A stretch of 64,000 bases of DNA. Origin: Actinoplanes sichuanensis. Its GTDB lineage: Bacteria > Actinomycetota > Actinomycetes > Mycobacteriales > Micromonosporaceae. Location: the NCBI RefSeq assembly GCF_033097365.1, contig NZ_AP028461.1:3162001-3226000 (forward strand), in the 5' to 3' direction. The notes under the pieces are model-generated. The model was given only the letters and a program-made list of their open reading frames with translations, did no database searches and was not told the origin of the DNA. Positions 5,649-39,675 of this stretch are shown in pieces; position 1 is the stretch's first letter, and each line of letters begins with the position of its first letter. The translations under genes were made by a program, and so were the position numbers.

Positions 5649-5814
5649 TGCTCCCTACCGGATACGGCCGATCCTCGGGCCTGCTCCCTACCGGATACGG
5701 CCGATCCTCGGGCCTGCTCCCTACCGGATACGGCCGATCCTCGGGCCTGCTCCCTACCGGATACGGCCGATCCCCGGGCCTGCTTCCCACCCGATACGGC
5801 CGATCCCCGGGCCG
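5649..5814. repeat. 33-bp tandem repeat, about five copies
   Basis: Five near-identical copies of a 33-bp unit containing CTCCCTACCGGATACGGCCG are arranged head to tail. The first three or four are virtually identical. The last has changed to CTTCCCACCCGATACGG. On the minus strand the unit reads as an 11-residue peptide (RGSAVSGREQA). Confidence 0.9.
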
Positions 5815-6110: not shown

Positions 6111-6134
6111 GGAGGTCGACGAGCCGATCGGCTG

Positions 6135-6620
6135 CCAGTCAGGAGCCGAGCCGGTCGGCCGTTGGTCAGGAGCCGAGCCGGTCGGCCGTTGGTCAGGAGC
6201 CGAGCCGGTCGGCCGTTGGTCAGGAGCCGAGCCGGTCGGCCGTTGGTCAGGAGCCGAGCCGGTCGGCCGTTGGTCAGGAGCCGAGCCGGTCGGCCGTTGG
6301 TCAGGAGCCGAGCCGGTCGGCCGTTGGTCAGGTGTCGAGCCGGTCGGCCGTTGGTCAGGTGTCGAGCCGGTCGGCCGTTGGTCAGGAGCCGAGCCGGTCG
6401 GCCGTTGGTCAGGAGCCGAGCCGGTCGGCCGTTGGTCAGGAGCCGAGCCGGTCGGCCGTTGGTCAGGAGCCGAGCCGGTCGGCCGTTGGTCAGGAGCCGA
6501 GCCGGTCGGCCGTTGGTCAGGAGCCGAGCCGGTCGGCCGTTGGTCAGGAGCCGAGCCGGTCGGCCGTTGGTCAGGTGTCGAGCCGGTCGGCTGCCGGTCG
6601 GGAACCGAGCCGGTCGGCGA
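6135..6620. repeat. 27-bp tandem repeat, about 18 copies
   Basis: A head-to-tail array of about 18 copies of a 27-bp unit (core GAGCCGGTCGGCCGTTGGTC). Most copies are identical. Two adjacent central copies and one near the end carry GTGTCG instead of GAGCCG, and the final copies decay. All three plus-strand frames stay open. It ends right next to the DUF4190 gene. Confidence 0.95.
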
Positions 6621-7764: not shown

Positions 7765-8164
7765 TTCTGCTCCTTGGGAACGGTGAACGTGATACCGGGA
7801 CTCGCACGCGATGCCCGGTGAAATTGTTCGGTCTGGTCGTCCGGTCGGAAATATCCTGAGCAGGGTCCGGCCGTGTTCTCGACGATCGGCGGCCGGCCGG
7901 GTGTGCCCAGGACGCGGTCGGGCTGGGCCCGCCTGGTCGGTCAGCCGCCGAACCAGCCGCTGACCTGCGAACCAGCCACGAATCAGGGGCGGCGGGCGAA
8001 CTGGCCCGGCCGCCTGGAAGAAGTCACGGGTGAGGCCTCGGCGATCCGCGTGCGGACATCAACGCGAACACCGGCACACTGCCTACGTTGATTCCACTCT
8101 GGATCACCGATGTGATGATCCAGTTCGCCTTCTCAACCGGTGTCATGTACAGAAGGAGGGGCCA
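7765..8164. other. Gap upstream of TPR-CHAT gene
   Basis: 400 bases without a gene. The last 70 contain the probable control region of the CHAT gene: an 8-bp inverted repeat at 8099-8123 and a strong ribosome site at 8153-8159. The rest shows nothing recognisable. Confidence 0.6.
8099..8123. promoter_or_regulatory. Inverted repeat upstream of TPR-CHAT gene
   Basis: Perfect 8-base arms CTGGATCA and TGATCCAG are separated by nine bases, about 42 bases before the GTG start. It could be an operator or a 5'-UTR hairpin. Confidence 0.45.
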
Positions 8165-11100
8165 GTGTCCACCCTGATACATCCAGGGGGCGGTGACTTC
8201 ATGGCCGATCCCACCCCGCCGGCCGGCCCGACACCGCCGGTCGACCGAATCCCGCTGCCCGGCGGCGCCCCACCGGACGGCGACCCGTCCCCGCCCACCG
8301 GCGATCCCGAACCGGCCGACGGCCTCGAATCGTTCGATCGGGTCCTGACCCCAGACGGCCTGCCGGTGATGGAACCGACACCGGCCGCAGACGGCCTGCC
8401 GGTGATGGAACCGACACCGGCCGCAGACGGCCTGCCGGTGATGGAACCGACACCGGCCGGAGACGGCCTGCCGGTGGTCGATCGGGTTCTCGCGGCGGAT
8501 GATCTCCGGGCGGTTGCCGGGCCGGTGGCGGTGGACGCCCAGGCGCTGGTGGACCAGGCGCTGTCCGGCGACGGCGGGCGGGCGGGCGAGAACGGGGCCC
8601 CGGCCGGGCGGTTGCCGGAGGTCGATCCGGTGGCGGGATCCGCGGACGGGTCGGCGCTCCTCGAGATCGCGGCCGAGGCGATGCGGCTCGTGCACATCGA
8701 TCCGCGAGTGGCCAAGGGACAGGCCCTGCGGCTGCGGGCCACGGCACGGCGAGCGGGGGACGCCGGGGCCGAGTCGGCGGCCGAACGGGTGCTCGGACTG
8801 GCGGCCCGGGAGAGCAACCGGATGCGTTCGGCGGCGCTTCATCTGCGGCGGGCGGTCGCGGTCGCCGACCAGGCGGGGCTTCCGGTGCCGGCGGCACGGG
8901 CCCGGATGACACTGGCACTCGTTCGGGCCGACCAGGGAGACATTTCGGGAGCCGTACGGCTGGGGGAGGCCGCTGCCGTACACCTCGAAGGCCTGGAAGC
9001 GGCCCGCCTGCGTCATCAACTCGCCGTCGTCGCGCAGCGGCGCGGCCTTCTCGAAGAGGCCCTGAAGGAGTACGGCGGGGCGCTCGCCGTGTTCCGACGC
9101 GAGGGCGACCTGCTGTGGCAGGCGAAGGTGCTCAACAACCGGGGCGTGCTCCAGGCGTATCGCGGACGGTCCGGCCCGGCGGAGGCGGATCTGCTGCGGG
9201 CCGAGGAGCTGTACGGCAAGCTCGGCCAGGACCTGGCGGTCGCCGACGTGCGATGGAACCGTGGATTCGCGGCCGGGCGGGCCGGGCAGGTCGTGGCCGC
9301 GCTGACGCATCTGGCCGCGGCCGAGGAACACTACGTCGGCAACCACCTGTCAGCGGCGCTGATCATGATGGACCGGTGTGACGTCCTGCTGTCGGCCGGG
9401 CTGCACGAGGAGGCCCGGGAGGTGGCCGCCGCGGCCGTCCGGGAGCTGGCCCGCCGCCGGATGGCCGCCGACCTCGCCGAGGCCCGGCTGCTGCTGGCTG
9501 CGGCGGCGCTGGCCTGCGGCGCGACCGACGAGGCCCGCAAGGCGGCGCGGTTGGCCGGGCGGGCCTTCGACCAGCAGGGCCGGCCGGGCTGGGCGGCGGT
9601 CGCCCGGTACATGCTGATCCGCACCGACTGGGCCGCCGGCCGGCACGGGCCGGACCTGCTGCGGGCGGCCGTCGCCGGCAGCGAGGAACTGCGGGCCGGC
9701 GGCTGGGCCGTGGCCGCGGCCGATGCGGCGCTGATCGCCGCCCGGTGCGCTCTGGCCGCCGGGCGCACCGAGGAGGCCACCGAGCTGCTGCGGCACACCG
9801 GCCGGGCCCGGGGCGCGGGAAGTCCGGCGGCACAGCGGGTCAGCGCCTGGCACGCCGAGGCGCTGCTGCGGATCGCCGGCGGGGACCGGCGTGGCGCGCA
9901 CGCCGCGCTACGGGCCGGGCTGCGCGCCCTCGACGAGCACCGGCTCACCCTGGGCGCCACCGAGCTGCGGGTCCGGGCCGCCGAGCACGGACTGGAGCTG
10001 GTGCGTACCGCGATGGACGCGGCGGTGGCCGACGGGTCGGCGCTGGCGCTGCTCACCTGGGCCGAGCGTGGACGGGCGGCCGCCCAGCAGGCCCGGCCCG
10101 CGCTTCCGCCGGCTGACGACGGGTTCGCGGCCGAGATCGCCGAACTGCGGGCGGTGGCCGCCGACCGGGAACAGGCCCTGGCCGAGGGCCGCGACGCCCG
10201 CCGCCACAGCCATCGCCAAGCCCAGCTGGAACGCTCGATCCGGGAACGGACCCGCCGCTCCGGGCCGAGCCGGGCGGCCGCCGACTCGGGCCGGGCCGCC
10301 GGGTGGGATGTCCCGGCGCTGATCTCGTGCCTCGGCGACCGGGCGCTCGTCGAGTTGATCACCGTCGGCGACATGATGTACGCGGTGGTGCTGGCCGGCG
10401 GCCGCCTGACCCGGCACGACCTGGGTCCGGTCACCGCGGTCGACGCCGAGGTGCGCGGGCTGCGGTTCGCGCTGCACCGGATGTCGCTGCGGCCCGGCGG
10501 GGGCGGCGCCGGCGGGGAACGGCTCGACGCGATCCTGCTCGGCCCGCTACGGGACCGGATCGGGGACGCCGACCTGGTCATCGTGCCGTCCGGGCGCCTG
10601 CACGGCGTACCGTGGCGGCTTCTTCCGGCTTGCCGGGATCGGACCCTGTCGGTGGCGCCGAGCGCCGCCGCCTGGCTGCGGGCCGTCACCGCCGAGCCGT
10701 CCGGGGACGCGACGGTGCTGGTGGCGGGCCCGGGACTGCCCGGCGCGGCGGACGAGATCAGCGCTCTTTCCGGGCGGTACGGCGCGACGTCCGCGCTGTC
10801 CGGCGCCGACGCGCGGGTCTCGGCGGTCCTGCAGGCCATGGACGGCGCCGGTCGTACGCACATCGCCGCGCACGGCACGTTCCGAGCGGACAATCCGCAG
10901 TTCTCGGCGCTGCGGCTGGGTGACGGGCCGTTGACCGTCTACGACCTGGAGGGCCTGCGCAAGCCCCCGGGCCTGGTGGTGCTGTCGGCGTGTGACTCGG
11001 GCATGTCCACCGTGCACCGCGGCGACGAGATCATGGGATTCGCCGCCGCGCTGCTGGCGATGGGCACCCGTTCGGTGATCGCCACCGTCGCCCCCGTGCG

Positions 11101-11245
11101 CGACGGTGCCGCCCGCGACGTGATGCTCCGCTTGCACGAGCACCTACGGTCCGGGAAGTCGCCGGCCACCGCGCTGGCCGAAGCTCAGCGTGAATCCGGC
11201 GACGACCCGGCCGCAGCCGCGTACGTCTGTTACGGGGCCGGGTGA
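8165..11245 (+). CDS. TPR-CHAT caspase-like protease
   Basis: 1026 residues. After a Pro-rich leader with three to four copies of a 12-residue repeat (DGLPVMEPTPAA), residues about 170-640 are Ala/Leu-rich helical TPR-like repeats. The C-terminal ~300 residues form a CHAT domain, a clan CD cysteine peptidase related to caspases and separase. The His is in HIAAHGTF (H903) and the Cys in VVLSACDSG (C943), so both catalytic residues are present. The GTG at 8165 is five bases after AAGGAGG; the open frame from 8030 lacks a ribosome site. No signal peptide, so probably cytoplasmic. It converges on a sigma/unknown/subtilase operon, suggesting a regulated proteolytic pathway. Confidence 0.9.
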   Translation: MSTLIHPGGGDFMADPTPPAGPTPPVDRIPLPGGAPPDGDPSPPTGDPEPADGLESFDRVLTPDGLPVMEPTPAADGLPVMEPTPAADGLPVMEPTPAGDGLPVVDRVLAADDLRAVAGPVAVDAQALVDQALSGDGGRAGENGAPAGRLPEVDPVAGSADGSALLEIAAEAMRLVHIDPRVAKGQALRLRATARRAGDAGAESAAERVLGLAARESNRMRSAALHLRRAVAVADQAGLPVPAARARMTLALVRADQGDISGAVRLGEAAAVHLEGLEAARLRHQLAVVAQRRGLLEEALKEYGGALAVFRREGDLLWQAKVLNNRGVLQAYRGRSGPAEADLLRAEELYGKLGQDLAVADVRWNRGFAAGRAGQVVAALTHLAAAEEHYVGNHLSAALIMMDRCDVLLSAGLHEEAREVAAAAVRELARRRMAADLAEARLLLAAAALACGATDEARKAARLAGRAFDQQGRPGWAAVARYMLIRTDWAAGRHGPDLLRAAVAGSEELRAGGWAVAAADAALIAARCALAAGRTEEATELLRHTGRARGAGSPAAQRVSAWHAEALLRIAGGDRRGAHAALRAGLRALDEHRLTLGATELRVRAAEHGLELVRTAMDAAVADGSALALLTWAERGRAAAQQARPALPPADDGFAAEIAELRAVAADREQALAEGRDARRHSHRQAQLERSIRERTRRSGPSRAAADSGRAAGWDVPALISCLGDRALVELITVGDMMYAVVLAGGRLTRHDLGPVTAVDAEVRGLRFALHRMSLRPGGGGAGGERLDAILLGPLRDRIGDADLVIVPSGRLHGVPWRLLPACRDRTLSVAPSAAAWLRAVTAEPSGDATVLVAGPGLPGAADEISALSGRYGATSALSGADARVSAVLQAMDGAGRTHIAAHGTFRADNPQFSALRLGDGPLTVYDLEGLRKPPGLVVLSACDSGMSTVHRGDEIMGFAAALLAMGTRSVIATVAPVRDGAARDVMLRLHEHLRSGKSPATALAEAQRESGDDPAAAAYVCYGAG
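8356..8470 (+). repeat. 36-bp in-frame tandem repeat in CHAT gene
   Basis: Three nearly identical 36-bp units encode DGLPVMEPTPAA. The last copy changes to PAGDGLPVV. They lie in the disordered leader before the TPR region. Confidence 0.9.
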
Positions 11246-11307
11246 CCGACCGGGCAGGGACCGGCCACCCGGCGCGCCGCCGCCCGGTTACCCGGCCGTT
11301 GGAGTCG

Positions 11308-11342
11308 GGTGACCGGACATCGGAGCATGATGGCCGGTCACC
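11308..11342. terminator. Hairpin between convergent CHAT and subtilase genes
   Basis: Perfect 9-base arms GGTGACCGG and CCGGTCACC with a 17-base loop lie between the two convergent stops. No T-run follows, as is common in high-GC actinobacteria. It could act in both directions. Confidence 0.45.
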
Positions 11343-11358
11343 TGACCGCGTGAAGTGA

Positions 11359-12567
11359 TCACTGGAGGATGAACCCGGGCGGCGCCGCGACGTACCGCCC
11401 GTAGCCGGGGAACGACCGCGTCAGCCCGCCGAACAGCCGGTCGGCGGCCTCCGCGCACGTCTCCTTCAACGTGGTGTTGGCCGCGATCTGTGCCGCCACG
11501 AACGGAGTCGCGAACGAGGTGCCGCTCCACGCGACCGCGCCGGTGAAGTCGATCGGGTTGGCCCCGTAGTTCCAGGTGCCGAACACGTACGGCGCGTGCA
11601 CCCGCACACCCGGAGCGCAGGCGGTGATCCAGTCGCCGGTGTTGCTGAACGGGGCGGGCACCTCGGTCCCGGCCGGGTCGGTGGTGTCGATCGCGGCCAC
11701 CGACACCACTCCGGGCCGGCTGGCCGGGTAGAAGTTCGGCGTGGCCGCGTCCACGTTTCCGGCCGCCGCCACCACGACCGTCCCGGCGGGCAGGTCGTCG
11801 AGGACCGCCTTGAGCGCGAGCGGCTCCTCGTCACCGACGTAGGTGCCGCCGAGCGACATGCTGATGATCTCCGCACCGGCGTCGCGGGCCCGCAGGATGC
11901 CGGCGGCCAGCGTCCACTCGTCGCAGATCCCGTGGACGTTGAGGACCTGGATCGACGTCAGGTGGGCGCGCCGGGCGTACCGTGCGATGATCCCGGCCGC
12001 CGCCGTGCCGTGACCGCCCATCAGGCCGATCCGCCGGACCGCCGGGTTTTCGTAGACCGCGTCCGGCTCGTGCCGGCCGTGCCGCTGGTGCTGGTAGAAG
12101 ACCGGCAGGGTGAGCGCCGCCGGGTCCAGGCCGGTGTCGATGACCGCGACCCGCACCACGCGACTGTCGGTGGCCACGCCGCCGATCTCCGGCTGCGGTG
12201 CCGGAACCGGGTCGGTCGCGGTGCCGCCGTGCAGTTTCGGCTGCCCGCTGATCGGGATGGCGTTGGCCGCGAACACGTGGTTGAGCCCGACCCGCGGGCT
12301 GTTGCCCTGGGCTCGCAGCTGACCCACCACCTGCGGCACGACCGGCGGGTCGTCACCGGTGTCGGGCAGGACGTACCGGTGAACGTATTCGTCGATCCCG
12401 TCCGGGGCCTCGCTCCGCTGCGCGCCCAGGCCCCGCATGGCGCCGCGGACCATTCCGGCGTCGTCGGCGGCCACCAGGATCTCATTGGCCATGTAGTAGG
12501 TGTTGCCAGTACGCCGGACTCGCGGGTCAAGTGCCCACGGGTTCGGGAAACTGGTCTCTCCGGGCAT
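11359..12567 (-). CDS. S8 family (subtilisin-like) serine peptidase
   Basis: 402 residues. The peptidase domain (about 135-400) has a full triad: D144 in VIDTGLD, H186 in GGHGTAAAG and S351 in SGTSFATP, plus the oxyanion Asn in AAAGN (N271). No signal peptide or transmembrane segment is present. The ~130-residue N-terminal region (ANEILVAADDAG onward, with GLNHVF) is not a standard inhibitor-I9 propeptide and may be regulatory. A cytoplasmic subtilase directly downstream of an ECF-like sigma gene and convergent with a CHAT protease points to intracellular proteolytic signalling. The start ATG is followed upstream by the unknown gene ending 22 bases away, so these are one operon. Confidence 0.92.
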   Translation of the reverse strand: MPGETSFPNPWALDPRVRRTGNTYYMANEILVAADDAGMVRGAMRGLGAQRSEAPDGIDEYVHRYVLPDTGDDPPVVPQVVGQLRAQGNSPRVGLNHVFAANAIPISGQPKLHGGTATDPVPAPQPEIGGVATDSRVVRVAVIDTGLDPAALTLPVFYQHQRHGRHEPDAVYENPAVRRIGLMGGHGTAAAGIIARYARRAHLTSIQVLNVHGICDEWTLAAGILRARDAGAEIISMSLGGTYVGDEEPLALKAVLDDLPAGTVVVAAAGNVDAATPNFYPASRPGVVSVAAIDTTDPAGTEVPAPFSNTGDWITACAPGVRVHAPYVFGTWNYGANPIDFTGAVAWSGTSFATPFVAAQIAANTTLKETCAEAADRLFGGLTRSFPGYGRYVAAPPGFILQ

Positions 12568-12588
12568 CGTCGTCTCGCTTTCTCGCGG

Positions 12589-13083
12589 TCAGCCGAGGGC
12601 CACCCAGCCGGTGACGATCGGCGCGGATTCGCTGCCCCGCAGCCGCAGCCGGATCGATCGGACCACGGGCAGATCGCTGAAGAACCTGCCTCCGGTGTCG
12701 ATCGGCCGGCGGACGGCACCCCCGTCGTGCAGCAACTCCGCCTCGGTGTGGCCGGCCGGCTCGATGAAACCGTCCACCTCGAACCCCGACGCGGTACGCG
12801 CGAGGCCGAGGTGCACACGGACACCGTCGGGGCCGGCCGGGCCGAACACCAGCATCCGGACATCGTCCGGGCCGCGGGTGAGGACCTCGGCGTCAGTCAG
12901 CGAATCCCATTCAAGATCGGCGAAGTCCTCACCGTCGGAGCGGAACGCGAACGCGGCGACCGCATAGCGGGCCACCTCGGGTGGCATCGGATCCACCCGG
13001 GCGATCAGTGCGCTCAGCGCCGCGTCCACGTTCATGGTTTCGGTTTCTCCCTCGGACGGCGGCAGGTCTTCGTCACCAGTCAT
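12589..13083 (-). CDS. Unknown protein coupled to sigma factor
   Basis: 164 residues, acidic, with a helical start (MNVDAALSALIARVDPMPPE) and a beta-rich remainder (VRMLVFGPAGPDGVRVHLGL, SIRLRLRGS). No family was recognised. Its ATG overlaps the sigma-factor stop by 11 bases, so translation is almost certainly coupled. The subtilase follows 22 bases downstream. In the sigma/X/peptidase order, X could be an anti-sigma-like regulator, an adaptor or a substrate; no transmembrane helix or zinc motif supports a classical anti-sigma factor. Confidence 0.75.
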   Translation of the reverse strand: MTGDEDLPPSEGETETMNVDAALSALIARVDPMPPEVARYAVAAFAFRSDGEDFADLEWDSLTDAEVLTRGPDDVRMLVFGPAGPDGVRVHLGLARTASGFEVDGFIEPAGHTEAELLHDGGAVRRPIDTGGRFFSDLPVVRSIRLRLRGSESAPIVTGWVALG

Positions 13084-13666
13084 GACCCTGCTCCGCCGGC
13101 TCAGATACATCCGCGAGTTTGCGAAGTTTCTCCAGGCACCTGCGGCGGGTGGGGCCGAGATACCCGATCGGGACGCCCAGGGCGGCGGCCGCGTCGGCGT
13201 ACGAGGGCGGCGGCTGGCCCATCAGGATCCGCAGTAACCGCTGGCAGTTGTCGCCGAGCTGGTTGAGCGCCTGCCACAGCCGGCCGGCCAGCGCGTCTCG
13301 TCTGACCTCCTCGTCGGCGGCGACGGCCATCTCCTCGGGGGACTGGTCCTCCCGGGCCGGACCGATCCACGCGAGATCACCTGTCGGCACCATGCGGTTG
13401 CGGGCGGCGAGCACGCGCAGCGACTCGCGGCGTGCGGTCGTGGACAACCAGGCACCGGCGTGGCCCGGGTCGGTCAGCTTGTCCAGGGAACGGGCGAACC
13501 GCTCCCAGGTGGTCTGGCTGACGTCCTCGGCGTCGGCCCGCCCCAGCCGGTAGGCTCGGGCCACGGACCAGACGAGACCCGCGTAGGCCCGGACGAGTTC
13601 CTCCCAGGCCGACGCGTCACCGGCAGCCGCTCGGCGTACCAGTGCTGCCGTCTCCACCGGCTCCAT
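13073..13666 (-). CDS. ECF-type sigma factor
   Basis: 197 residues. Sigma region 2 is visible (ELVRAYAGLVWSVARAYRLG then DAEDVSQTTWERFARSLDKL), followed by a linker and a region-4 helix-turn-helix (PPSYADAAAALGVPIGYLGP, then RRRCLEKLRKL). Length fits group 4 (ECF) factors that direct RNA polymerase to a small regulon. GAAGGAGGG precedes the ATG. It heads an operon with the coupled 164-residue protein and the subtilase. An inverted repeat lies 39 bases upstream. Confidence 0.88.
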   Translation of the reverse strand: MEPVETAALVRRAAAGDASAWEELVRAYAGLVWSVARAYRLGRADAEDVSQTTWERFARSLDKLTDPGHAGAWLSTTARRESLRVLAARNRMVPTGDLAWIGPAREDQSPEEMAVAADEEVRRDALAGRLWQALNQLGDNCQRLLRILMGQPPPSYADAAAALGVPIGYLGPTRRRCLEKLRKLADVSEPAEQGHDW

Positions 13667-13704
13667 CGAGCCCTCCTTCGTCGTCCCACATGCCCCGCCC
13701 CGCC

Positions 13705-13717
13705 CTGAAACGATTTC
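13705..13717. promoter_or_regulatory. Inverted repeat upstream of sigma operon
   Basis: TGAAA-3-TTTCA with perfect arms, 39 bases upstream of the sigma start, in an otherwise GC-rich leader. It could be part of an autoregulated promoter or an operator. Confidence 0.35.
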
Positions 13718-13762: not shown

Positions 13763-14195
13763 TCAGTTGCTCCAGTGGCCCTCCGCGGCGGGCATGGCCG
13801 CATAGAGGGCGTCCAATGTAGTGCTCGACTGAGCGCTGACCCACACCCACACCCCGCCCTCGCCGTGGGCGCGCAGCAACTGGCCGGGCGCCGAGAACCA
13901 CCGGACCGGCGACTCCTCGACGTCGATCCACATCGGGAGATCCGGCAGCGGCACCCGGTCGAACGGGGCCAGCGCCGGTTCGACCACGTCGGCCGGCAGC
14001 TCGGCGGCGTTGCAGAGCTCGAAATCATGCTCCTGCACGACGGTGGTCAGGGCGATGTCGACACAGGCCAGAGACACCCGATCGACGTACGCCTGCGCCG
14101 GTCAGGCCCCACGCGGCGGTGAACAGGCGCAGGAACTCCCACACCCCGGCCCGGTCTCCGATGCGCGGCCGGAGCTCGGCCGTGGTGTCGAACAT
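13763..14195 (-). pseudogene. Frameshifted small gene, unknown function
   Basis: A minus-strand ATG at 14195 opens a protein-like start (MFDTTAELRPRIGDRAGVWE then FLRLFTAAWGLT) that soon leaves coding character. In the next frame the same protein seems to continue as PAQAYVDRVSLACVDIALTT and runs to a stop at 13763. Adding one C in the run near 14103-14107 joins them smoothly through GLTPAQAYVD, giving about 143 residues. This is a recent frameshift, a sequencing error, or less likely two genes. No family was recognised. It lies between the sigma operon and a divergent phospholipase D-like gene. Confidence 0.55.
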
Positions 14196-14207
14196 GAGAC
14201 CGAATCC

Positions 14208-14213
14208 TACGAT
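14208..14213 (+). promoter_or_regulatory. Candidate -10 box for PLD-like gene
   Basis: TACGAT lies in the divergent gap between the frameshifted gene and the PLD-like gene, 16 bases before ATG 14230. Confidence 0.3.
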
Positions 14214-14229
14214 CAGACAATCCGATCAA

Positions 14230-15375
14230 ATGAGGTACGCGCCGGGGATTACCGCCGACACTGAGGTCATGGGCCTGGACCTGGGAAGTGTCGAGTTCTA
14301 CACCGGACCACCCGTGCTCGGCGCACCCGATGATCTCGACGCGGTGATCCGTGAGTTCATCGGCGGGGCGACCGAGACCCTGCTGATCGCCGTGCAGGAG
14401 CTGGACTCGCGGCCGATCGCCGAGGCGGTACTGGCCGCCAAACTGCGTAAAGTGCGTATTCAGGTCATTCTGGAGGGTGATTACCTCCGAGAGGATCCGC
14501 CGCGGGCCGATCCGTGGGCGGTGGACGGGGAGAACGAGACCAACCGGGTCATCCACGCCGCTCTACTGCGGGCCGGGGTGGACCTGATCACCGATCTGAA
14601 CCCGAAGATCTTCCACCAGAAGTTCATCGTCCGTGATCCGGGGCGCGACACCGCCGCCGTGCTGACCGGGTCGACGAACTTCACCCGTACCGACACCGGC
14701 ATCAACCCACCGGACAACCCGGAGCAGCCCGGCAACAACCTCAACCACCTGGTGATCCTGCGCGGGCAGACCGCCGCGAGCCTGTATCTGGCCGAGTTCA
14801 GCCGGATGCGGTCCGGCACGTTCGGCGCGCTGCAGGAGCGGGTCACCCCGCGTCCGGCCGAGTTCCGGCTCGGCCGGATCCGGGTCAAGCCGATCTTCGC
14901 GCCCCATCACGGGCCGGAGATGGAGATCATGAAGCAGATGCTCAAGGCGGCCGAACGGGTGGACTTCGCGATGTTCACGTTCGCCCAGTCCTCCGGCATC
15001 GACGACACCATGGAGTGGCTGCTGCGGGCCGGCATCCCGATCCGCGGGGTCCTCGACCGGGGTCAGGGCGCACAGGAGTGGTCCGCCACCAAGCGCCTGC
15101 AGGCGGCCGGCGCCGACCTCTACGAGAACGCCTTCGGCAACGGGGTCCGCAAGGTCCACCACAAACTCATGATCATCGACCGTCGGCTGGTGGTCGCCGG
15201 GAGCTTCAACTTCACCGCGCCGGCCAACACCCTCAACGACGAGAACCTGGTCGTCCTGGGCGACCTGGAGGAGACCGACCCGGCGGCCGAGACGGCCCAG
15301 CGCCGGCTCGCCGCCTACGCTCTGGCCGAGATCGACCGGATCGTCACCGACCTGTCCCGCCCGGTTCCGGCCTAG
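14230..15375 (+). CDS. Phospholipase D-like protein with two HKD motifs
   Basis: About 381 residues with two PLD half-domains. The first motif is HQKFIVRD followed by GSTNF; the second is HHKLMIID followed by GSFNF. Both have the full HxKxxxxD pattern, so the active site should be complete. The superfamily includes phospholipases, nucleases and transferases acting through a phospho-His intermediate. No signal peptide is seen, which favours a cytoplasmic nuclease or lipase. The start is uncertain: ATG 14230 lacks a ribosome site, and ATG 14269 is only two bases after GAGG. It borders the sigma/subtilase/CHAT island, where it might act as an effector. Confidence 0.85.
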   Translation: MRYAPGITADTEVMGLDLGSVEFYTGPPVLGAPDDLDAVIREFIGGATETLLIAVQELDSRPIAEAVLAAKLRKVRIQVILEGDYLREDPPRADPWAVDGENETNRVIHAALLRAGVDLITDLNPKIFHQKFIVRDPGRDTAAVLTGSTNFTRTDTGINPPDNPEQPGNNLNHLVILRGQTAASLYLAEFSRMRSGTFGALQERVTPRPAEFRLGRIRVKPIFAPHHGPEMEIMKQMLKAAERVDFAMFTFAQSSGIDDTMEWLLRAGIPIRGVLDRGQGAQEWSATKRLQAAGADLYENAFGNGVRKVHHKLMIIDRRLVVAGSFNFTAPANTLNDENLVVLGDLEETDPAAETAQRRLAAYALAEIDRIVTDLSRPVPA

Positions 15376-38211: not shown

Positions 38212-39675
38212 ATGGACATCGCCGACAAGGTGCTCATTCGGAAATTCATCACCGTCGTCGCCGGGGCCGGGGGTATCGCCGACGCGCAAGGGCTGCTCGC
38301 GTTGGTCGACGACAATCACGAAGTCCTGGACCTCGGTGCGGCAGCCGTCGCCCGTGCCATCCAGCGCGGCGAAATGCACCTCGGTGAGGCGCTCGCCCTG
38401 CTGGACTGTGTGAAGGGGATGTCGACCCGCCATCTGATGTTCGAGTCACAGACGAGCAACATCGGCTACGCGCCCCAGGTCCGCATCGCCGTGACCCACC
38501 GCTCGGCATTCGAGCACTACCTCAACGAACGTCCCGACCCGACCGCCGTCATCTCGTTCCACCTGATCTCCGACACCCAGCTGCTGCTGATCTCGGCGAC
38601 CAACTATCCGATGCGTGGCCAGTCGGGCGACGGCCGGGTCGAGTACCGCTGCGCCGTGATCAACCGCATCGACCAGGGGCTGCTGGCGTCCGTGGCCGCC
38701 TTCGCCGAATCCGTCGACGGCGGCCGGCCGATCTCGCCCGGCTGAGCGAACCCTTCGGCAGTCTCGGGCGCGCGATCGGGGTGCTGATCGGCGGGCGGCC
38801 GGTGCACGAGGTGATCTTCGTACCGCACAAGGCCCTGCACGCGTTGCCGCTGCACGCCCTGGTCCTCGATGCGGAGACCGATCTGTACCTGCACGACGTC
38901 GTCAACTCCGTCCGGTTCTGCTCGTCGCTGTTCGACGCGTCGACCTCCGGCACCTGGGTGCCACCGCCCGGATACCGGCAGCCCACGCCGCGGCTGGTGT
39001 CGGTGATGGAGCGAGACTCGCCACTGCCGGGAGTGGGCCTCTACCGCAGGATGCTCGACGTTCTCCGCCTCCAACTCGGCGAGCAGATGCGGATCGACGA
39101 TCTGTACGGCCTCGGCGACCTGCCCGGCGGCTTCGAACTCGGCGACATCCGGGTCAACTGGCACGGGCATGGGCGTTCCAGCTCGAACGCGTGGGGGGCC
39201 AGCTACCTGACGCTCGGCGACGGCGTCGTGTTCGGACGGACGATCGCCACCACCTGGCGTCTCCCGGGCCGGCCGCACGTCGTGCTCGCTTCCTGCCAGA
39301 GCGCGGTGGACGCGGCATTGACGTCGGTCGTCGACGAGTACTGCGGGCTCGACGTCGCGTTCCGGATCGCCGGGGCGCGGTCGGTGGCCGCGTCGATGTG
39401 GGATCTGGGCGATCCGGTGGCGGCCTTCACCGCCGTACGCCTGACCTCGTCCTTTCTTCAGACCGGCAAGCCGCCGGCGCATGCGTTGACCGCGTTGCAG
39501 CGGGCGTTCCGCAACGGTACGTGGAAGGCCGCGCTGCTCCGCCCGGAGCAGGCGGCGGCGCTTCCCACCGAGCAGGCCGAGCTGCTGCGCGAGTTCCAGG
39601 CGCCCCTTCGAACGGCTGCCCGACGACGCCTTCGCCGACCCCCGCCGCTGGGCCACCATGCGGGTACACGGATGA
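38212..39675 (+). pseudogene. CHAT caspase-like protease, split by two frameshifts
   Basis: The N-terminal part runs from ATG 38212 (GGAGG site upstream) to a stop at 38745, with CHAT-type strands (AVISFHLISDTQLLLISA). The catalytic CHAT part continues in the next frame from 38742 (LSEPFGSLGRAIGVLIGGRP, VPHKALHALPLHALV), with His in VNWHGHGRSS and Cys in VVLASCQSAVD. Near 39600 it returns to the first frame and ends PFERLPDDAFADPRRW...VHG at 39675. Adding one C near 38742 and removing one C from the CCCC at 39603-39606 restores one 487-residue CHAT protein. If taken literally, the genome encodes a 177-residue piece and a CHAT piece lacking its own clear start (first GTG 38781). Confidence 0.75.

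Follow-up and report, generated by a model that had tools for sequence, protein, structure and literature searches.

A conserved four-gene locus of Actinobacteria encoding a TPR-CHAT protease, a subtilase, an ECF-type sigma factor and a probable anti-sigma factor

In Myxococcus xanthus, the sigma factor DdvS becomes active upon inactivation of DdvA, the signal being described as unknown in the excerpts considered from a report of 2015 (PMC4374960). Passages of the Craspase paper state that the protease Csx29 cuts Csx30, an inhibitor of CASP-sigma, and that this proteolysis lifts the inhibition; they also refer to RseA and RsiW as cases in which an extracytoplasmic function (ECF) sigma factor is freed through proteolysis of its anti-sigma factor (PMC10028731). 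Furthermore, EACC2/caspase neighbourhoods featuring an ECF sigma factor and a TPR protein are, in parts of the corresponding survey, predicted to represent bacterial conflict systems (PMC8195603). The present study deals with a locus encoding a TPR-CHAT cysteine protease (CHAT), an S8 subtilase (S8), an ECF-type sigma factor (sigma) and a 164-residue protein designated X. It was identified in a stretch of 64,000 nucleotides (nt), referred to as the window, from Actinoplanes sichuanensis (contig NZ_AP028461.1, positions 3,162,001 to 3,226,000), the genome of which comprises 12.1 Mb in one contig, with the named close protein matches belonging to Actinoplanes. The cassette is conserved across numerous Actinobacteria and also occurs in a small number of bacteria outside this group. 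We are almost certain that the four genes represent one real module.

An earlier note on this DNA, made without database searches, had described four genes with intact His and Cys residues in CHAT, a complete catalytic triad in S8 and no S8 signal peptide, and all of these features were found to be present in open genes (Table 1). Sigma, X and S8 form a tight operon, the sigma and X genes sharing 11 nt. The CHAT gene likely starts with the GTG at position 8165, located behind an AAGGAGG-like sequence, which gives a protein of 1,026 amino acids (aa). Its Pfam scores were 136.8 bits for CHAT (PF12770, cut-off 24) and 34 bits for TPR_12 (cut-off 30.1), and the catalytic pair His948 and Cys988 (numbering from 8030) is present. 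A proline-rich N-terminus of about 157 residues precedes the part shared by the family, the family match starting at 8636; this extension contains a tandem repeat of 36 nt x 3.5 at 8352-8476. For S8, the residues Asp144, His186 and Ser351, completing the triad, were detected together with Asn271, and no hydrophobic N-terminus representing an export signal was seen in the window protein. Its predicted structure resembles pro-subtilisin, with a propeptide domain packed against the catalytic one. In a comparison with PADLOC, partial-length matches were obtained for CHAT (BovA, 38.6 bits) and for S8 ('subtilase', 42.4 bits), and none for sigma and X. Elsewhere in the window, an open frame of 593 aa gave a further, partial match to CHAT (53.4 bits) at 39165-39518 (+).

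Table 1. Genes of the four-gene locus, its neighbours in the window, and Streptomyces genes preceded by the promoter-like element.
Feature	Position in the window or locus	Strand	Remarks
TPR-CHAT cysteine protease	8165..11245	+	open frame 8030-11245; convergent to the sigma-X-S8 operon
S8 subtilase, pro-subtilisin-like N-terminal domain	11359..12567	-	PF00082 83.4 bits, cut-off 21.8
X, 164 aa, probable anti-sigma factor	12589..13083	-	two helices and transthyretin-like beta-sandwich (model)
ECF-type sigma factor	13073..13666	-	TIGR02937 63.3 bits, cut-off 42.9; Sigma70_r2 46.7 bits
PLD-like protein	14119-15375	+	two PLDc_2 stretches, weak DrmC matches; lineage-specific neighbour
Small gene remnant	13763-14077	-	intact 214-aa relative at the same place in L097
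P81	7519-7764	-	NNH7 match, E 0.047
Streptomyces STAND/LuxR-type genes with element	L060, L063, L070, L072, L082, L089, L091, L093		

To evaluate the locus, the earlier note had proposed a search for co-occurrence of the four families across Actinobacteria in differing synteny, and such co-occurrence was found. The S8-anchored set consisted of the best 80 of 328 relatives obtained in a genome-collection search, all of them named loci; 60 X-anchored loci were chosen, not at random, from family-level matches, and 20 phylum-level loci, likewise not at random, from listed matches. Profiles were trained on the fetched loci, and any profile match, in some cases a partial one, within a locus of at most 21 kb was counted, several loci ending at contig edges. 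With these profiles, all four families were detected within about 20 kb in 62 of the 80 S8-anchored loci, the rest carrying CHAT and S8 (eight), CHAT, S8 and sigma (four), S8 only (three), S8, sigma and X (two), or S8 and sigma (one). The X-anchored set contained 50 loci with all four families, five with S8, sigma and X, four with sigma and X, and one with CHAT, S8 and X, and the phylum-level set showed all four in 15 out of 20 loci, contig ends cutting two of the other five. An untrained count by tblastn with the window proteins alone (E ≤ 1e-5) located CHAT in 71, sigma in 69, and both in 65 of the 80 S8-anchored loci; the window X reached only six of them, being too divergent for this method. 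Because the families co-occur in varied synteny, the opposite picture named in the earlier note, i.e., CHAT and S8 usually lying apart and without the sigma-X pair, was not seen.

Ten incomplete S8-anchored loci (seven of the eight CHAT-S8 loci and the three S8-only loci) were checked further, and X was found elsewhere in the genome for eight of them. Three Jiangella genomes and one Nocardioidaceae metagenome-assembled genome (MAG) harbour the CHAT-S8 pair separate from a sigma-X pair elsewhere, and the other genomes featured a complete module (two), S8-sigma-X (one) or sigma-X (one) at another place. The contig of one CHAT-S8 locus (L246) ends approximately 0.7 kb past the pair. Distance matrices of the families correlated with r values between 0.74 and 0.85 (119 loci; permuted maximum 0.12; species phylogeny not controlled), which is taken as no more than in line with a module.

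Gene order was distinguished into ten arrangements among 110 complete loci, with sigma and X being adjacent and co-directional in every one. The commonest layout features CHAT divergent from an S8-sigma-X operon (58/110), followed by S8-sigma-X-CHAT in a row (19/110); the layout of the window was found in three complete loci. Sigma lies directly upstream of X for 125 out of 126 X copies, at a median gap of 28 nt between the profile matches. Locus L207 holds the sole X copy lacking this upstream sigma, CHAT and S8 being present there. Within the module family, the catalytic residues are preserved nearly throughout, for CHAT (His 114/115, Cys 115/115) as well as for the S8 triad (Asp 120/120, His 120/120, Ser 119/120).

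Regarding breadth, the narrow X profile was matched in 28 of the 67 genomes of the genus, and the broad X profile in 151 of 250 sampled genomes (30 of 44 genera) of the family Micromonosporaceae and in 53 of 396 sampled genomes (33 of 237 genera) of the phylum. Complete named loci were detected, among others, in Streptomyces, Micromonospora, Salinispora, Lentzea, Kribbella, Nocardioides, Cellulomonas and Acidimicrobiia MAGs. Beyond the phylum, two Zixiibacteriota MAGs (L037 and L065) carry all four genes by profile on one strand, and a Phycisphaerae MAG (L092) and an unclassified MAG (L088) encode sigma, CHAT and S8 together with an open reading frame (ORF) assigned, by position, to the place of X.

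An anti-sigma function is the most likely one for X, because the N-termini of distant syntenic copies weakly match anti-sigma models. The structure predicted for X alone comprises two N-terminal helices and a beta-sandwich (mean pLDDT, a per-residue model confidence, 85.5), the latter being carboxypeptidase-regulatory/transthyretin-like by sequence, as PF13620 was matched by 22 of 52 members (E ≤ 0.1, best 3.5e-7). Distant copies of the module encode X proteins with a longer N-terminus. Zf-HC2 was touched, below the cut-off, by four of ten distant X proteins from one family of the phylum (E values between 0.023 and 0.36) and by X of L037 (0.084). Four of seven distant X proteins matched the NCBIfam 'anti-sigma factor' model NF052375 (E 9.7e-5, 6e-4, 0.011 and 0.015), in all cases far below the cut-off of 100 bits, and a profile of 12 distant X proteins recruited the solved anti-sigma factor DdvA with an E value of 0.0042. 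Furthermore, the ORF at the X place in L088 carries HxxxCxxC, a zinc anti-sigma motif. Window-type and distant X proteins proved to be homologous by profile comparison (hhalign 97.6%, E 3.5e-12).

Upstream of the module genes, k-mer enrichment revealed a promoter-like element, TGTATCA followed by CTC after 16-17 nt, with 44 cases per spacing and no more than 12 at any other. In the form GTATCA-N16-18-CTC, it was present in 42 of 142 distinct operon-first regions, 179 permuted words reaching an average of 0.26 and a maximum of 21; the word responsible for this maximum probably represents a one-base shift of the same motif. Before removal of duplicates, the element occurred in 5 of 36 sigma-first regions and 41 of 113 S8-first regions. 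Eight of the 11 Streptomyces loci harbour another copy, located 34 nt before the possible leaderless start of a protein of 575-641 aa (Table 1), the other three loci being cut by contig ends on this side. The L063 protein, the sole member scanned with Pfam, featured a LuxR-type helix-turn-helix and a weak AAA match, and this STAND/LuxR-type regulator represents a candidate target of the sigma factor. Within the window, the lone site at 8156-8181 (-), lying over the CHAT start and pointing away from it, was dismissed as evidence on account of the chance level: at least one match occurred in 22 of 100 shuffles, and the own genome held four sites vs. three in the control. This site is followed by a possible leaderless ORF of 40 aa, both lying within 8024-8181 (-), with a diverged copy in L169. 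By eye, a TGTCG-N6-CGACA-like palindrome was also noticed, upstream of sigma in L100-L103 and of S8 in L158, L163, L165 and L173.

Based on the co-occurrence, the preserved catalytic residues, the constant pairing of sigma with X, the pro-subtilisin-like S8 model and the promoter-like element recurring in many relatives, we lean towards reading the module as a soluble, stand-alone and presumably CRISPR-free sigma/anti-sigma switch that is released by one or both of the intracellular proteases. In such a switch, the ECF sigma factor would be held off by the soluble anti-sigma factor X, and CHAT may sense a cytosolic signal through its TPR region. Activated CHAT would then either cut X directly or mature the S8 zymogen, which in turn would destroy X. 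The freed sigma factor would transcribe its own operon, giving positive feedback, as well as lineage-specific targets, possibly including the regulator in Streptomyces, and the system would be reset later as X is remade. Inactivation of X by one or both proteases is considered probable, and the specific order CHAT, then S8, then X is put forward tentatively. By analogy to Craspase, a role in defence is plausible.

Several observations weigh against the proposed switch. Sigma-X stands alone in four, and S8-sigma-X lacks CHAT in five, of the 60 X-anchored loci, and the promoter-like element is absent from 100 of the 142 operon-first regions, including that of the window operon. For the window X, no match was obtained in Pfam (E ≤ 1), NCBIfam or PADLOC (both E ≤ 0.1), and thus no anti-sigma domain was recognisable by Pfam and NCBIfam; searched against solved structures, the window-type X profile retrieved no anti-sigma factor, but only PafC (E 0.26). 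The N-terminus of distant X proteins, taken by itself, reached DdvA and the solved chain 8rot_B at E values of only 0.24 and 0.08, respectively, and the alignment between window-type and distant X starts past most of the anti-sigma-like segment. The window X is therefore assigned by its homology, by the position of its gene and by its relatives. The interpretation of the earlier note stood in part: X as an inhibitor of the sigma factor was strengthened indirectly by the anti-sigma-like N-termini of distant syntenic homologues and by DdvA and Csx29 as relatives of CHAT, but not by a domain in the window protein itself.

A different assignment of roles is rather unlikely, but deserves consideration: CHAT might cleave X in the manner of Csx29 acting on Csx30, and sigma, once released, might induce the S8 pro-protease as the effector of cell arrest or death. 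The action of Csx29 on the anti-sigma factor Csx30, as given in passages of PMC10028731, would agree with this. As the first gene of the operon shared with sigma and X in 77 of the 110 complete loci (58 + 19), S8 is likely induced by sigma, and the 41 of 113 S8-first regions carrying the element ahead of S8 point in the same direction. On the other hand, five of the 60 X-anchored loci possess S8-sigma-X without CHAT within 16 kb, where CHAT may lie elsewhere, and to our knowledge no soluble intracellular subtilase acts as an effector. It appears improbable that X instead serves S8 or CHAT, be it as substrate, inhibitor or chaperone, and resides beside sigma only incidentally. The lack of an anti-sigma domain in the window X and the eight of 80 S8-anchored loci carrying the CHAT-S8 pair without adjoining sigma-X would fit this explanation, but it is opposed by the position of sigma upstream of 125 of 126 X copies, by sigma-X pairs also standing alone, and by the matches of distant X proteins to anti-sigma models. 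The own genome contains 11 CHAT matches, 32 S8 matches and 100 sigma places above the cut-off; both partner types were located within 6 kb for one of the 11 CHAT and one of the 32 S8 matches, this being the present locus, and sigma within 6 kb of three of the 32 S8 matches. This richness in sigma and S8 genes would speak for widespread gene families having come together by chance, but this explanation can practically be dismissed, since it is contradicted by the co-occurrence in varied order and by ten of the 11 CHAT matches having neither S8 nor sigma within 6 kb.

The PLD-like gene and the small gene next to the four do not belong to the module. No match to the PLD-like protein, the small gene or P81 was found in the 80 S8-anchored loci (E ≤ 1e-5). 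Among 90 other loci, the PLD-like protein was present in four (L097, L098, which is the window, L099 and L169), representing three genomes including the window's own, as L099 and L169 belong to one genome; its role as an effector, suggested previously, was accordingly abandoned. The small gene was restricted to L097 and L098 within these loci, and the intact relative in L097 bears out the notion of the broken copy being a relic. P81, considered as a conserved effector, was encountered in L169 only, 30 of the 90 loci having flanks of 1.5 kb that could not show it. Clustering of 1,225 neighbouring ORFs from 141 loci revealed no conserved fifth gene, the inspected clusters consisting of common families or lineage-bound genes only; judging from the C-termini, the largest cluster (23 loci) seems to be a mixture of ABC ATPases, one member being confirmed by Pfam. 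For the 11 loci with sigma-X only, no common neighbour was apparent from the ORF list, no family search having been made. Tandem repeats were also observed in the window at 6120-6618 (27 nt x 18.5) and 5649-5813 (33 nt x 5.0).

Searches of open-licence literature, judged by titles, abstract starts and some passages, with subscription papers and preprints outside their scope, yielded no identifiable description of the module; 'CHAT domain' and 'ECF sigma' appeared together in the Craspase paper only, and neither 'CHAT' nor 'sigma factor' was encountered in PMC7159879 as far as considered. Sigma-freeing proteases are known from envelope stress and CRISPR-linked systems, and the same logic would be realised here in a stand-alone, apparently soluble four-gene cassette. 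If true, the proposed switch would explain what the 'hypothetical proteins' of the X family do, provide one class of TPR-CHAT proteases with a partner and a testable substrate, and hint at the way in which DdvA is inactivated. Should the protease cascade also hold, the module would be the widespread equivalent, in bacteria, of zymogen cascades of caspases, serving immunity or programmed arrest.

In a comparison with solved structures, based on a profile built from 14 CHAT proteins of the module and the 60 best of 296 matches, many of them unrelated TPR proteins, the first CHAT-named chain was 8rot_B (E 1.3e-12), followed by Csx29 (E 1.3e-9); the window CHAT sequence alone matched Csx29 with an E value of 0.14, 8rot_B not being among the matches listed. 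8rot_B is a 'CHAT domain-containing protein' of 991 aa, and since its N-terminal aligned letters are identical to those of 8rlz_A ('Antisigma factor DdvA'), we infer that both represent one protein. Among the known systems, CalpL-CalpT-CalpS of type III CRISPR reportedly also frees a sigma factor by a soluble protease, which is, however, of the Lon type and switched by cyclic nucleotides, with neither CHAT nor S8 being involved. RseA and RsiW are membrane-spanning inhibitors, whereas no strongly hydrophobic stretch was seen in 115 of 119 X proteins. The EACC2/caspase neighbourhoods share a caspase-like protease adjoining an ECF sigma factor, but in the sections of the survey considered no S8 or X-like protein was met and the term 'subtilase' is absent (PMC8195603). 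Craspase/CASP resembles the module in its TPR-CHAT protease Csx29, its sigma inhibitor Csx30, to which X would correspond by role, and its ECF sigma factor; it differs in that the window CHAT reached only 21.3 bits with the Csx29 model NF041237 (cut-off 300) and in the additional S8 of the module. It is conceivable, though doubtful, that the module is related to the Craspase logic, or perhaps even ancestral to it, while working without CRISPR: a soluble protease cascade of two steps would lead from a caspase-like TPR-CHAT sensor via the maturation of a cytosolic pro-subtilisin and the destruction of X to a self-amplifying sigma factor. DdvS-DdvA (PDB 8rlz and 8rot) likewise combines an ECF sigma factor with an N-terminal anti-sigma domain and a CHAT domain; these two domains are fused in DdvA, whereas the module encodes X and CHAT as separate proteins and adds the S8 protease.

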